Origin: Pseudomonas campi
Lineage (GTDB): Bacteria > Pseudomonadota > Gammaproteobacteria > Pseudomonadales > Pseudomonadaceae
Direction of reading: 5' to 3'
Assembly (NCBI RefSeq): GCF_013200955.2
Contig: NZ_CP053697.2
Coordinates: 4,030,001 to 4,094,000 of the forward strand
Length of the DNA stretch: 64,000 bases
Shown: in pieces, positions 3,944-40,070 of the stretch
Layout: each line of letters starts with the position of its first letter
Position numbering within the stretch: position 1 is the stretch's first letter
Notes under the pieces: generated by a model
Told to the model about the DNA's origin: nothing
The model's input: only the letters and a program-made list of their open reading frames with translations
Databases searched by the model: none
Position numbers and translations under genes: made by a program

Positions 3944-4073
3944 CGGCCCTCTCCCCCGGCCCCTCTCCCGTGAACGGGAGAGGGGTGACTAACCCCCAGC
4001 ACCGCAAACTGGTGGATGCACGGAGCCGCTCCTGCCCCCTCTCCCATTTATGGGAGAGGGCTGGGGAGAGGGG
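3944..4073. repeat. GGGAGAGGG-type extragenic hairpins
   Basis: Two short perfect hairpins, CTCTCCCGTGAACGGGAGAG at about 3964-3983 and CCCTCTCCCATTTATGGGAGAGGG-like at about 4037-4060, each flanked by extra CCCTCTCCC/GGGGAGAGG half sites. The same paired design recurs near 5.55, 7.7, 35.85, 38.6 and 40.0 kb. The 390-bp gap between yccS and the next gene holds this pair plus two further inverted repeats and no credible gene. Confidence 0.85.
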
Positions 4074-5540: not shown

Positions 5541-5630
5541 TCCCCTCTCCCACTGGTGGGAGAGGGGCTGGGGGAGAGGGGATTGGTCAGCACACCCTCT
5601 CCCCATCCCTCTCCCGTAAACGGGAGAGTG
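5541..5630. repeat. Paired GGGAGAGGG hairpins
   Basis: A left hairpin CCCCTCTCCCACTGGTGGGA with matching right arm, a GGGGGAGAGGG spacer, and a right hairpin CCCTCTCCCGTAAACGGGAG. The left and right halves are themselves complementary, so the 90 bp could form a cruciform. It lies in the gap between the flavoprotein gene and the diguanylate cyclase gene. Confidence 0.85.
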
Positions 5631-5778
5631 GGAAAAGGCGCCCCCCATCCACCCTGAACAGCAGCCTGGCAGGCCGCCAAAAGACTTTAAAATCGTGGAG
5701 CAAGGCTGGGCAGCCCTATTGGCACTCTGCCAGTATTGGCGGATGGCGCCCCGCGGCGCAGATCACCCGAGTATCCCG

Positions 5779-8792: not shown

Positions 8793-9653
8793 TCAGCGCA
8801 GCGTGGCAGCAATCTCATGGATATCGGCGCGATGGGCGAGCACCAGCTCCAGCTCGCCATTGGCACTGACGAAATTCAGCGGCGGCAACAGCTTGTGGTA
8901 AGCCGCCAGCTCCACCAGCAGCGGCAGCTCGGCTTGCGGGTTCTGCTCCTTGATCGCATGGAACAGCGCCAGGTTGACCAGATCGATCAGCCCCAGCTCG
9001 CGGCTTTCACACAGACTCCAGTTGCCGGCGTTGCGGATCACCCCGATGTACTCGTCGTCCACCGCCCACTTCTTCAGCACGATCACCCCGAGCGACTTGC
9101 TGTACTCGCGGCACAGCTTGTAATACAGCTCGCCGGAAGGAATCTGCGCCTCATCCTTGAACGCCGACAGCACCGCCAGGGTGCCCACCTCGCTGAGCAG
9201 GCTGGCCAGCAACGCATGCTCCGGCGCCACATGGCCGAGCAGGCGGGCAAGCATGGCGCTGGTGCTGGCCTTGAGCACCAGGCGCTCCCACACCTCGACG
9301 AACAACCGCTTGTGCGCCGCGCTGTGCAGGGTGAACAGGCTGCGAATGCTGTGCACCATGGTGATGCGATCCACCTCGGCCATGCCGAGTAGGGTGATCA
9401 CCTCATGCAGCGTCTTGGGCACCAGCGCATGCCGATAAAGCGCGCAGGAGGCATGCTTCATCAGAATCGCGCTCAACGCCGGATCACGGCTGACCAGCCG
9501 TACCAGCGCCGGCACCGTCATCCGCTCGTCACTCAGGGCCCGGCGGATATCCAGGGTAATGGTCGGCAGGCTGGGCAACTGCTCCTGACCCTGCATCAGC
9601 TGCGACACCACCCGCCGGTAGATCGAATAATCGGACGTCTCATTGACCAACAC
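8793..9653 (-). CDS. HDOD domain protein
   Basis: A 286-residue protein spanning a single HDOD domain, a catalytically silent relative of HD phosphohydrolases that is common in signalling proteins of Pseudomonas. Typical features are the N-terminal LPSLPTITLDIRRALSDE, the SRDPALSAILMKHASCA helix pair, the ITLLGMAEVDRITM segment and the later LLASLLSEVGTLAVL region where HD proteins would carry metal ligands. The start is GTG at 9653, with GGAGG just upstream on the minus strand. It borders the cassette array and seems to be the last core gene before it. Confidence 0.85.
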   Translation of the reverse strand: MLVNETSDYSIYRRVVSQLMQGQEQLPSLPTITLDIRRALSDERMTVPALVRLVSRDPALSAILMKHASCALYRHALVPKTLHEVITLLGMAEVDRITMVHSIRSLFTLHSAAHKRLFVEVWERLVLKASTSAMLARLLGHVAPEHALLASLLSEVGTLAVLSAFKDEAQIPSGELYYKLCREYSKSLGVIVLKKWAVDDEYIGVIRNAGNWSLCESRELGLIDLVNLALFHAIKEQNPQAELPLLVELAAYHKLLPPLNFVSANGELELVLAHRADIHEIAATLR

Positions 9654-9895
9654 ACACCTCCGCGCACTTCCGTTGCAGTGTAGGTGGCGCTCGGCGGGTG
9701 GTGAGACAAAGGCACAGCGTTACGCGGTGGACAGGTCAGGGGGGAGTCAGTAGGTTCGGCTCAAGTGCTCGGGACGATGCTCGGGAGCCGAGGGCGCTGA
9801 CCCCGTCGCGGCTTCTCCCAAGGCTTTCGCATTAACTATGGCAGCCTCTAGACAGAAAACGATCAAGGTCTGGCAAGGAATATTAGGAGGCAAGG

Positions 9896-10210
9896 ATGCT
9901 CAAAACCGAGTCATGGCGGAAATATTTATTCATAGTATTCATACATTCATTACCGGCTGCACTCATCACAGCAATCTCATTTTTCATGTATTCATCGCTT
10001 GAATCGGAATGCCATGTGAGCAATGTATTACAAGAAAAAATGAGAGCTCGCTTGTCGAAGTCAGAGCTGCAGTCAGCTCGCCCTAGTTCTGGATCCGGGG
10101 GGTGCCCTGTATTGTTCTTTTACATGAGAGATGACGGGGCAGGTGCTTGCGCAGGAGGTTCTGAAAATATATTTCGCGGACCTGAAATTTATTTTGACAG
10201 TTGCGGTTGA
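9896..10210 (+). CDS. Cassette gene A: small membrane-anchored protein, unknown
   Basis: I do not recognise this 104-residue protein. It has one hydrophobic segment near residues 10-32 (LFIVFIHSLPAALITAISFF) and a Cys-containing remainder that would lie outside the membrane. The ATG at 9896 has a textbook ribosome-binding site (AGGAGG at 9885-9890). Base composition is clearly more AT-rich than the surrounding genes. An attC-like site begins 9 bp after the stop codon, the spacing expected of an integron gene cassette. The 240 bp upstream hold no gene, no recognisable attC and no integrase. Confidence 0.6.
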   Translation: MLKTESWRKYLFIVFIHSLPAALITAISFFMYSSLESECHVSNVLQEKMRARLSKSELQSARPSSGSGGCPVLFFYMRDDGAGACAGGSENIFRGPEIYFDSCG

Positions 10211-10218
10211 GTGCAAGC

Positions 10219-10294
10219 TCCTAACAACTGATTCAAACCGTTCGCTACGCTCACCGGGATGGGTTAAAGCCAACCCCTTAACCAAACGTTAGGC
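10219..10294 (+). other. attC-like recombination site 1 (best preserved)
   Basis: The left end TCCTAAC (10219-10225) pairs with the right end GTTAGGC (10288-10294); the latter fits the R' core consensus GTTRRRY exactly. Inside are a TTCAAACCG L''-like and a CCCCTTAACCAAA L'-like segment, and a central imperfect palindrome with CGCTACGCTC. Length is about 76 bp. This is the layout of an integron attC site. The central sequence resembles sites I associate with Pseudomonas chromosomal integrons, from memory. Confidence 0.8.
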
Positions 10295-10310
10295 AAAGGA
10301 AGGCATCACA

Positions 10311-10658
10311 GTGCCTGGCTGGCGACGCGAATTCATAAAACTATTCCCGCAACATCAGAGTGCAGCGCAAGCAGAAACATACTCTGGCGCACTGGTTCAA
10401 CAGCCGCTTTTCTTCATCCTCAAAGAGGCCATAATTCTTGGCGAGACCGACAATATTAAAAGAGTTATTTCTTACGTTAAGTGGCTTGACCAAAACCCTG
10501 CAGCCAGTTGCACCGCAGAAATTGAAGAAGACCTATTTATACCGATAGCAGAATCCAGAGACCTGCGCACAGGCCTGCTAAAAACACTCAACAAGCATGA
10601 TTTCGAGTCAATAAAGAAATACTTCATAGCAAGCTGGCAAAGCGAAGAACATCGATAA
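10311..10658 (+). CDS. Cassette gene B: small cytoplasmic protein, unknown
   Basis: A 115-residue soluble, mainly helical protein (WRREFIKLFPQHQSAA..., ILGETDNIKRVISYVKWLDQ...) with no signal peptide or membrane segment. I do not recognise the family. Starts with GTG at 10311, preceded by AAGGAAGG at about 10296-10303, which itself sits directly against the R' end of attC site 1, as is usual for cassette genes. Codon use is AT-richer than in the flanking core genes. Confidence 0.6.
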   Translation: MPGWRREFIKLFPQHQSAAQAETYSGALVQQPLFFILKEAIILGETDNIKRVISYVKWLDQNPAASCTAEIEEDLFIPIAESRDLRTGLLKTLNKHDFESIKKYFIASWQSEEHR

Positions 10659-10713
10659 TGAATTCAACTCAATACACAGCTAGCCTTTTCAATCTGACGC
10701 ATCTGCGTAACCT

Positions 10714-10786
10714 GCCTAGCAAACGGCTCAAACCACTCGCCGCGCTCGCTGGAGCGGGCTAAAGCCTCCTTTAACCAAACGGTATT
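10714..10786 (+). other. attC-like recombination site 2 (right core degraded)
   Basis: The left core GCCTAGC (10714-10720) differs by one base from the complement of GTTAGGC. L''-like GGCTCAAACCA, central CGCGCTCGCTGGAGCG and L'-like CCTTTAACCAAAC follow in the same order as in site 1, but the right core that should read GTTAGGC is GGTATTT. The site therefore looks mutated and probably weak or inactive. Confidence 0.6.
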
Positions 10787-10801
10787 TTTCAAAGGTAGCA
10801 T

Positions 10802-11158
10802 GTGAGCAACCTCATCAAGATTTTTCTCTCAGCAACAATAACCACCACAGTTATATTAATGACCCAGCATTATCTGGAAAATAAACCAGCAGAAATGAGC
10901 CGGGAGGAATTGCGCCTTATAAGTTCGTGCAATTTCCCTGTATCCCGTACAGAGCCCCTCACCACTGAAGAAACCTGCGTCGTAGATTTACTTAAAACCA
11001 GATGCAACAAGATAGACTCCTGTTACGTAGACTGCATTACATCAGGAGATGGTTTGGATATTGGAGGCGGGTGTCCGCATCTGTGCAACTATGCAAACAG
11101 AAAGCACTGGCGCCCACCGGCTGAAATCGCGAAGTGCGCCAAGCCTCAGCAAAATTGA
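10802..11158 (+). CDS. Cassette gene C: Cys-rich exported or anchored protein, unknown
   Basis: A 118-residue protein with an N-terminal hydrophobic helix (LIKIFLSATITTTVILM) that can be a signal anchor, followed by a polar region with nine cysteines (SCNF, TCVVD, RCNK, SCYVDC, GCPHLC, KC), suggesting a periplasmic disulfide-rich domain. No family is recognised. Start GTG at 10802; an overlapping ATG at 10800 is out of frame. A GGTAG is just upstream. It begins 16 bp after attC-like site 2 and is followed within a few bases by site 3. Confidence 0.6.
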   Translation: MSNLIKIFLSATITTTVILMTQHYLENKPAEMSREELRLISSCNFPVSRTEPLTTEETCVVDLLKTRCNKIDSCYVDCITSGDGLDIGGGCPHLCNYANRKHWRPPAEIAKCAKPQQN

Positions 11159-11160
11159 AC

Positions 11161-11229
11161 ACATAACAAATGGCCCAAGCCGCTCGCTCGGGATCGGCTT
11201 AAAGCCGGCCCCTTAATCAACCGTTAGAG
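11161..11229 (+). other. attC-like recombination site 3
   Basis: The left core ACATAAC (11161-11167) and right core GTTAGAG (11223-11229) are near-consensus and mostly complementary. The interior has GGCCCAAGCCG, CGCTCGCTCG, GGCTTAAAGCC and CCCCTTAATCAA in the same order as site 1. Length is about 69 bp. Confidence 0.7.
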
Positions 11230-11234
11230 ACCAC

Positions 11235-11552
11235 ATGTCACTGCTTCTCGCCCGCTTACTGCTTGCCCTAGCATCCGTGGCTTGGCTACGTGCACTGGGT
11301 GGCATTTGGTACGCACACTTCTTCGTGAGCGATATCGTTGAGCCAAAGAACATCATGTCCCGACAAACCGCAGCGAGCTTAATATCTCTAGAGGTCGGTT
11401 GGTGGCTCGCACTTGCCGCTTTGGCGCTCTCCGGCTTGTTGCTCGCATTGTCTCGGAGCCGGCCCCGCCCAGCGTTCTGGGCCGCACTAGTCAGTGGCGC
11501 GTATGTCACCCCAGTAGTTCTCGTGATTAGCTATGTACAGCTCATTCATTAG
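11235..11552 (+). CDS. Cassette gene D: small three-helix membrane protein, unknown
   Basis: A 105-residue protein with three hydrophobic segments (about residues 2-22, 52-72, 80-102) and almost no soluble part, hence an inner-membrane protein of unknown role. Start ATG at 11235 lies only 5 bp after the right core of attC-like site 3, so part of its ribosome-binding region is the attC end itself. GC content is higher than in genes A-C, which suggests a different donor. No family is recognised. Confidence 0.6.
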   Translation: MSLLLARLLLALASVAWLRALGGIWYAHFFVSDIVEPKNIMSRQTAASLISLEVGWWLALAALALSGLLLALSRSRPRPAFWAALVSGAYVTPVVLVISYVQLIH

Positions 11553-11594
11553 CTCCGCAGTCGGGACACGCCTCAATGGGAAGCACCTGCCCGC

Positions 11595-11671
11595 CTCTAA
11601 CAACGAGTTTAAGTCACCCGCCTCGATCGCTCCGGACCACATCCCGCGGCCCCTTCAGCAAAACGTTCGTC
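11595..11671 (+). other. attC-like recombination site 4 (degraded)
   Basis: The left core CTCTAAC (11595-11601) is good. An L''-like GAGTTTAAGTCACC and L'-like GGCCCCTTCAGCAAAAC follow, but the right core reads GTTCGTC where GTTRRRY is expected. Order and spacing match the other sites; the central palindrome is poor. Confidence 0.5.
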
Positions 11672-11687
11672 CCTTATAGGAGTTTCA

Positions 11688-12209
11688 GTGACCACGCAAA
11701 AAGAAGTCGAACGCATCCTGCGCGTCGACCATGCCGGAGAGCGTGGCGCTATCAGTATCTATACAACTCAAATCGCCATTTCCAGGCGCCTGTGGCCAAG
11801 CTGCGTTCCTGCGCTTGAAGAAATGTTGGCGCATGAGAAGTCGCACTACCGGACATTCGAGTCAGAACTGCGAAAAAGGCATGCGCGCACCTGTTATGCC
11901 CTCCCCCTGTGGAACCTGGGCGGTGCAACCCTGGGCCTGATCACAGCCCTGCTCGGGCCGAAAGCCATCTGGTCATGCACTGCCGCCGTCGAAAGTACCG
12001 TCTACAAACACCTGCAAGAGCAGCTTCACTTTCTAGAACAGCACGACCAGGCGGCCTGGCTGGCCGTCAAGGCGATTGAGGCAGACGAGAAATCCCACCT
12101 TGAGCACGCGCTGGACAATGGTGGTGAGCCAGTTAGAGCCAATTGGCTTATTTGGGCAGTCGTCTCTTCGTGTACATCCATGGCTATCTGGCTCTCGCGC
12201 AAGCTATGA
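11688..12209 (+). CDS. COQ7-type demethoxyubiquinone hydroxylase-family protein (cassette gene E)
   Basis: A 173-residue di-iron protein of the COQ7 family, whose known members hydroxylate demethoxyubiquinone in ubiquinone synthesis. The metal ligands are visible: an early Glu in RVDHAGERGAISIYTTQ, ExxH in LAHEKSHYRTF, a Glu in AAVESTVYKHL and a second ExxH in IEADEKSHLEHA. A hydrophobic C-terminal segment (LIWAVVSSCTSMAIWL) suggests membrane association. Start GTG at 11688 with AGGAG at about 11679-11683. It follows attC-like site 4 and precedes a degenerate site 5, so it appears to be a cassette rather than the core coq7 gene; whether it works in quinone synthesis is inference. Confidence 0.85.
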   Translation: MTTQKEVERILRVDHAGERGAISIYTTQIAISRRLWPSCVPALEEMLAHEKSHYRTFESELRKRHARTCYALPLWNLGGATLGLITALLGPKAIWSCTAAVESTVYKHLQEQLHFLEQHDQAAWLAVKAIEADEKSHLEHALDNGGEPVRANWLIWAVVSSCTSMAIWLSRKL

Positions 12210-12212
12210 ACT

Positions 12213-12262
12213 GCCCAGCAGCCGGTTAAAGTCGTTCGCTACGCACCAGCACCCCGTTGCAA
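12213..12262 (+). other. attC-like site 5 remnant
   Basis: GCCCAGC (12213-12219), then GGTTAAAGTCG, CGTTCGCTACGC and CCCCGTTGCAAC, a short and eroded version of the pattern in sites 1-4. It marks the probable right edge of the cassette island, since the next gene (GNAT) looks like an ordinary core gene. Confidence 0.4.
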
Positions 12263-12285: not shown

Positions 12286-12759
12286 ATGCCCATCACCTGG
12301 TTTATCCGCCATCACGCCGACCTCTCCATCCACGAGCTTTACGCCCTGCTCGCCTTGCGCACGCAGGTGTTCGTGGTGGAGCAGAACTGCCCTTATCTGG
12401 ATGTGGATGGGCAGGACCTGCTCGGTGCTACCTGCCACCTGCTGGCCTGGCAGGGCGATGTGCTGGTGGCCTATCTGCGCCTGCTCGACCCGGCGAAACA
12501 GGGCGGTGATGTGGTGATCGGCCGCGTGGCGGTCGCCCCTGAGGCGCGCGGCATGGGGCTCGGTCATGCACTGATGGAGCGGGCGTTGCGGGCCTGTGCC
12601 GAGCGCTGGCCGGGCTTGCCGATATATCTGTCGGCCCAGGCGCACCTGCAGGGCTACTACGGCCGTTATGGCTTCGCGCCGGTCGGCGAGGTCTATCTGG
12701 AAGACGCTATCCCGCATATCGGCATGCGCCGCCGCTCCACACAATCTCCACAGACCTGA
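12286..12759 (+). CDS. GNAT acetyltransferase, ElaA-like
   Basis: A 157-residue N-acetyltransferase of the ElaA type. The acetyl-CoA loop is visible as VAVAPEARGMGLGHALM (R/Q-x-x-G-x-G/A form) and the N-terminal ALRTQVFVVEQNCPYLDVDGQD is the family signature. The C-terminal YGRYGFAPVGEVYLEDAIPHIGM matches the usual end. The acceptor substrate is unknown for the family. ATG 12286 is used; the frame runs open upstream into the cassette island but that part has no family resemblance. Confidence 0.85.
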   Translation: MPITWFIRHHADLSIHELYALLALRTQVFVVEQNCPYLDVDGQDLLGATCHLLAWQGDVLVAYLRLLDPAKQGGDVVIGRVAVAPEARGMGLGHALMERALRACAERWPGLPIYLSAQAHLQGYYGRYGFAPVGEVYLEDAIPHIGMRRRSTQSPQT

Positions 12760-35834: not shown

Positions 35835-35925
35835 TCCCCTCTCCCACTTGTGGGAGAGGGGCCGGGGGAGAGGGCATAGGCCAAGCACCCTCTCCCCAGC
35901 CCTCTCCCGTGAACGGGAGAGGGGG
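35835..35925. repeat. Paired GGGAGAGGG hairpins
   Basis: Left hairpin CCCCTCTCCCACTTGTGGGA with its right arm, GGGGCCGGGGGAGAGGG, then CCCTCTCCCCAGCCCTCTCC and a right hairpin around GTGAAC. The copy is nearly complete and lies between the thioesterase gene and gshA. Confidence 0.85.
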
Positions 35926-36136
35926 CAAAAGCGATCGGTGCCTGCAACCGTCTGCATAAAATTCAGGAAGTCGCCGGGATACCACCCGGCGCCTCTCTCA
36001 GGATTGCACCAAGCCCCCCGCTCGGCGCATCCTGCCCTTTTCCGGTCAGGCCTCCAGGCCAATCCGTCCATTCCGCCTTGTAAGCGACGTTTCCACCCCC
36101 ATATAAGGGCGACCGTCGAGTGAAGGAATAACCATC

Positions 36137-39973: not shown

Positions 39974-40070
39974 CTCCCCTCTCCCGTTCACGGGAGAGGG
40001 GCCGGGGGAGAGGGGCATCGGCTCGCCCTCTCCCCAACCCTCTCCCATAAATGGGAGAGGGGGCTGTCTG
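39974..40070. repeat. Paired GGGAGAGGG hairpins
   Basis: Left hairpin CCCCTCTCCCGTTCACGGGA, GGGGCCGGGGGAGAGGGG, then CCCTCTCCCCAACCCTCTCC and a right hairpin around ATAAAT. A complete copy of the family, between argE and argA. Confidence 0.87.

Follow-up and report, generated by a model that had tools for sequence, protein, structure and literature searches.

Coq7/CLK-1 (PF03232), represented by human COQ7 and by the Coq7 proteins of P. aeruginosa and R. rubrum, is the demethoxyubiquinone (DMQ) hydroxylase, and every Coq7 tested in E. coli has proved to be C6-specific (PMC5069965). Integron cassettes are known to carry accessory peptide deformylases, which are inhibitor-resistant and occur alongside the canonical enzyme (PMC12690207), and clusters of at least two attC sites with no integrase nearby are described as CALINs. 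Here we analyzed a 64,000-nucleotide stretch of the Pseudomonas campi chromosome (the window, to whose first base all positions refer unless they are given as chromosomal), in which a COQ7-type gene lies among attC sites, and find this case to be a variant of these known things. The protein shares with Coq7/CLK-1 the fold (predicted here), the length of the catalytic domain, and the six ligands, but is about 34% identical to human COQ7 and still more distant from the host's Coq7, belongs to a separate clade, appears to be accessory, and is known here from its sequence and a predicted model. Like the integron-borne peptide deformylases, it is a core-pathway enzyme on a cassette with a canonical copy also in the chromosome and a clade of its own, whereas those enzymes belong to another pathway, lie partly in complete integrons, and have been shown to confer inhibitor resistance (PMC12690207). 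The array resembles a CALIN in that each of several like-oriented attC sites lies on the 3' side of an ORF, no IntI is nearby, and a complete integron is present elsewhere in the chromosome, but it is small and decayed, and its last cassette ends in half an attC site.

The COQ7-family ORF occupies 11688-12209 on the plus strand, encodes 173 aa, and begins with a GTG codon directly downstream of an AGGAG Shine-Dalgarno sequence; an initial annotation had placed the end of the gene at 12262, 53 bases beyond its true end. The match to Pfam COQ7 (PF03232) is full-length (E = 1e-46, 159 bits versus a cut-off of 23.5, profile positions 2-169 of 169), and in the PDB the sequence matches human COQ7 (3.7e-23). 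The same annotation held that all predicted di-iron ligands are kept, and this was borne out: E18, E50, H53, E102, E134, and H137 (Glu, two ExxH motifs, and Glu) are all present, are equivalent to E60, E90, H93, E142, E178, and H181 of human COQ7, and are invariant in an alignment of 28 proteins from all COQ7 groups. Judged by sequence, membership of the gene in the COQ7 family is real. In an AlphaFold2 run that took the proteins of the window and of the related loci as input, the cassette protein gave a model with six helices and a pLDDT of 95.8, which is structurally closest to the two entries for human COQ7:COQ9, above all to the NADH-bound form (7sss chain E, TM 0.88, 34% identity), and the protein is accordingly predicted to have the COQ7 four-helix-bundle fold.

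The core bases of the sites are degenerate in this array, so that a strict scan for the attC motif found none, and we searched with a covariance model trained on 21 attC sites from the integron of the host; with this model the host's own integron sites score 75-103 bits, which served as the reference for the array. This revealed a CALIN of five cassettes at 9886-12257 on the plus strand, with a left edge at 9885/9886 defined by divergence from a sister species (G333), between an HDOD-domain gene on the left chromosomal flank (8793-9653, minus strand; Pfam HDOD, 2.5e-26) and a GNAT acetyltransferase gene on the right (12286-12759, plus strand; Pfam and NCBIfam), DNA similar to the GNAT flank being found in 335 of the 398 genomes of the genus. 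The first four cassettes, all on the plus strand, carry ORFs of 104 aa (9896-10210), 115 aa (10311-10658), 118 aa (10802-11158), and 105 aa (11235-11552), none of which belongs to a known family or has a Pfam or PADLOC match. They end respectively in the well-preserved attC 1 (10220-10293, 81.8 bits), the decayed attC 2 (10715-10786, 44.0 bits), attC 3 (11162-11228, 56.5 bits), and the decayed attC 4 (11596-11670, 36.2 bits), the last of which is also the left limit of the coq7 cassette. These four sites have E-values of 2e-22 to 1e-8 in 136 kb, lie on one strand, and each directly follow the 3' end of an ORF; the array as a whole exceeds chance. The fifth cassette, with coq7 as its cargo, closes the array, and the orientation of the gene and the attC 4 to its left fit the cassette layout. 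The cassette's own attC is a half-site on the plus strand (12214-12257, left half only; 9.8 bits, and 15.2 bits in the sister species) with an E-value of 1 over 136 kb and 0.022 in a 3.1-kb search, and is recognised chiefly by its position and by the better-scoring copy in the sister species. Thus, of the two attC-like sites between which the initial annotation had placed the gene, site 4 is real though decayed, while "site 5" amounts to a left half. The cassettes also differ in composition from their flanks, with a GC content of 44-57% versus 63-66% in the flanking genes and a GC3 of 40-64% versus 80-85%.

The chromosome of the host is a single contig of 4.44 Mb, and its sole full IntI match (497 bits) is at 1.339 Mb, beside a long attC array. 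Chromosome-wide there are 96 attC hits. Besides this main array, which spans 1.320-1.338 Mb, they form another large cluster at 2.240-2.263 Mb, and the remainder are lone sites or small groups near 0.81, 2.495, 2.588, 2.815, and 4.040 Mb, of which the group at 4.040 Mb is the coq7 array. As the four scored sites of the array lie at 4.040-4.042 Mb and the only full IntI is at 1.339 Mb, the coq7 array is a small integrase-less cluster, or CALIN, in a host that has a complete integron elsewhere, and its attC sites match those of that integron. The second large cluster (chromosomal positions 2240000-2263500, plus strand) contains about 45 well-preserved attC sites and likewise has no full match to an integron integrase alongside. 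We infer that an integron of this lineage captured coq7 and that the gene was then stranded between the HDOD and GNAT genes, either when a cassette inserted off target or when a larger array was rearranged. Integron integrases reportedly insert cassettes off target at attG sites, according to one study cited in PMC12690207, which could explain such clusters, as could array rearrangement.

Comparison with related genomes, in which a search from the HDOD side returned too few loci and one from the GNAT side returned empty sites, is consistent with insertion at this junction. In two less close relatives (G280 and G291), the HDOD and GNAT genes adjoin, with about 80 bp between conserved blocks versus 2.6 kb in the window, and this represents the empty site. 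The corresponding locus of the sister species shares with the window the coq7 gene (99% protein identity), attC 4, and the half-site, and its insertion has an identical left boundary (window position 9885). Where the window has cassettes 1-3 and half of cassette 4, the sister species instead has two ORFs, one for a metallophosphoesterase and one of the nSTAND6/TPR type. These two ORFs (locus L062, 12028-15401), the first of which is calcineurin-like and overlaps the second, give weak PADLOC matches to PDC-S60 and mads_8 and may be a single gene broken at a run of G; they possibly represent a defence gene in the same insertion site. A further genome (G118; locus L147, about 1040-1500) has an unrelated insert of about 460 bp at the HDOD-GNAT junction, which includes a short lysine-rich ORF and in which no attC was detected, and the junction therefore takes up different DNA in different species. 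Separately, stretches of about 40-60 bp at 3947-4073, 5595-5644, 35888-35936, and 39976-40064 of the window are common to these several places and to the region in the sister species, and are probably dispersed REP-like repeats.

The gene had initially been described as lying on a mobile cassette, which appears to be true of its past and not of its present. Both species with the coq7 cassette show a truncated attC at its end, which makes excision or integration by IntI unlikely; the cassette was once mobile and is probably immobile today, and a still mobile cassette was rejected on the same grounds. Between the two species, the coq7 genes differ by 14 synonymous and three nonsynonymous substitutions (dN 0.005, dS 0.130, dN/dS about 0.04, based on 17 changes), with two amino-acid changes, T2A and I31V, and no frameshift in either copy. 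This ratio indicates purifying selection on the gene during its time at the stranded position, although the numbers of changes are low. The same substitution pattern and the intact frame speak against the idea that the gene is a passenger, a promoterless and unexpressed cassette relic without present function, as does the retention of coq7 in the sister species, where the cassettes on the left of the gene have been lost or exchanged. We regard the passenger explanation as quite unlikely, although it agrees with the decay of the attC sites, with the distance of the cassettes from the integron promoter, and with a promoter scan of the array, covering the sigma-70-like type, that found none. This last result also counts against the reading that we prefer and to which we give about an even chance, namely that the gene is old integron cassette cargo encoding an accessory Coq7-type hydroxylase of a lineage distinct from the core one, kept as an alternative isozyme.

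A check proposed with the initial annotation was a search for a second, core coq7 gene elsewhere in the genome, and such a gene was found on the minus strand at chromosomal positions 540440-540916; within the genus, a COQ7 match is present in 296 of 298 sampled genomes. The gene in the window is thus not the only coq7 of its genome, and both its product's 27% identity to the host's core Coq7 and our trees place the protein outside the vertically inherited Pseudomonas Coq7 cluster. Its nearest relatives are instead proteins from a Steroidobacteraceae MAG (55% identity) and a Kangiellaceae MAG (49%). A quick and a careful tree both gave three groups: the gammaproteobacterial core Coq7 proteins; the alphaproteobacterial proteins with human COQ7; and a third group, here called clade C (support 95/92 in the careful tree), which comprises the cassette protein, second copies from Pseudomonas, the two MAG proteins, and rhizobia-like proteins. 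These trees are of short proteins with long branches and are to be read with care, Coq7 having been judged too short for firm phylogeny by Pelosi et al. (PMC5069965), and in an AU test a branch joining the window protein with the gammaproteobacterial core Coq7 was not rejected (p 0.23). That p-value, which also weighs against our preferred reading, is the sole point for a recent duplication or replacement of the host's own coq7, which we consider barely credible given the far higher identity to the Steroidobacteraceae protein than to the host's core protein and the presence of the core gene in its own genome and almost throughout the genus; recent duplication is refuted by the identity to the core protein.

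When the proteins of 398 genomes from the genus were searched (E 1e-15), the cassette protein itself was found in the window species (G000) and its sister species only, and a second COQ7 was found in 27 further genomes, 26 of them at 38-43% identity and one at 33%, so that second copies are patchy (7% of sampled Pseudomonas). Across the class the cassette protein is rare, with two other carriers among 369 sampled genomes (E 1e-20). The initial annotation had expected the protein to group with proteins from integron contexts, but its relatives are stand-alone second copies in Pseudomonas, other gammaproteobacteria, and rhizobia-like bacteria, near which a covariance model tuned to the sites of this host found no attC; an integron clade was rejected on this basis. 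The view of a COQ7 gene on a cassette therefore stands as regards its separateness from the core gene and is unsupported as regards its grouping with integron proteins. A second COQ7 is present beside the clade-C gene in 10 of the 12 clade-C genomes checked, and any COQ7 at all occurs in just 14 of 60 sampled genomes of one rhizobia-like genus, and clade C therefore looks accessory almost everywhere; in two genomes of that genus (G909 and G1101), the clade-C gene is the only COQ7.

What the accessory protein does can be read in two ways. The cassette enzyme would, as in known Coq7, carry out an O2- and NADH-dependent C6 hydroxylation of demethoxyubiquinone, and we consider DMQ hydroxylation as a second isozyme to be its most likely reaction because of the fold, the ligands, and the fact that the Coq7 proteins tested so far are specific for C6 (PMC5069965). 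Against this reading, the protein scores 65.5 bits with NF033656, the equivalog model of bacterial DMQ monooxygenases, and falls well short of the cut-off of 180; moreover, a few positions that are conserved in COQ7 set clade C apart from the two core groups. Together with the core coq7 already in the genome, this low score and these clade-specific residues would also suit a clade-C protein that has the COQ7 fold and di-iron site and uses a different substrate outside the ubiquinone supply, be it a lipid, a foreign compound, or a quinone of another kind, a reading that we hold to be possible though tentative. The gene neighbourhoods bear on it from both sides. In the Kangiellaceae MAG, the neighbours are desaturase-, saccharopine-dehydrogenase-, and DUF4166-like with none a quinone gene, and elsewhere the neighbours are not conserved. 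In one of the two rhizobia-like genomes (G909), a UbiA-like gene, read by eye, is two genes away from the clade-C gene and gives a weak hint at ubiquinone. Retention of the six ligands and of the predicted human COQ7 fold, and the two rhizobia-like genomes with no other COQ7, further argue against another substrate. No quinone gene neighbours the cassette coq7 at the locus itself, which counts against the DMQ reading.

If the cassette enzyme is an alternative DMQ hydroxylase, it might be useful where core Coq7 fails, under iron, oxygen, or redox stress or in the presence of a natural inhibitor. A broader proposal, which we consider rather unlikely, is that clade C is a third, so far undescribed COQ7 lineage whose members spread among proteobacteria as accessory genes and have travelled on an integron cassette at least once. 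Its carriers would thereby gain an alternative ubiquinone hydroxylase able to withstand an agent (an inhibitor, or iron, oxygen, or redox stress) that puts core Coq7 out of action, much as peptide deformylases carried by integrons do for their own target. We found no papers joining integron cassettes with coq7 or describing the clade-C group in the open-access literature, which is weak evidence of novelty. After peptide deformylase, the locus would be the second case of an integron cassette with a core-pathway enzyme. Should the enzyme prove active, horizontally spread enzymes would back up the synthesis of respiratory quinones, and clade C would tell which properties of Coq7 nature selects.

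Several further observations concern the relatives of the cassette protein. None was found in viral contigs or PHROGs, and a phage collection gave one record of Wolbachia phage WO with 32% identity (MN180249.1, 22134-22616), a COQ7-family gene annotated as benzoquinol hydroxylase that may be host DNA in a phage record. A plasmid search returned two rhizobial records at 45-48% identity. No conserved operon was found around the clade-C genes, the exceptions being blocks common to related Pseudomonas loci or to the two rhizobial plasmids. In the Kangiellaceae MAG (locus L013, 3244-6507), the fatty-acid-desaturase-like, saccharopine-dehydrogenase-like, and DUF4166 genes are followed directly by the clade-C COQ7 gene on the same strand and possibly form an operon with it. 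The stand-alone accessory COQ7 genes of 26 Pseudomonas genomes (loci L035-L060) lie in varied neighbourhoods, and in at least two of these genomes a small cytochrome c gene adjoins.
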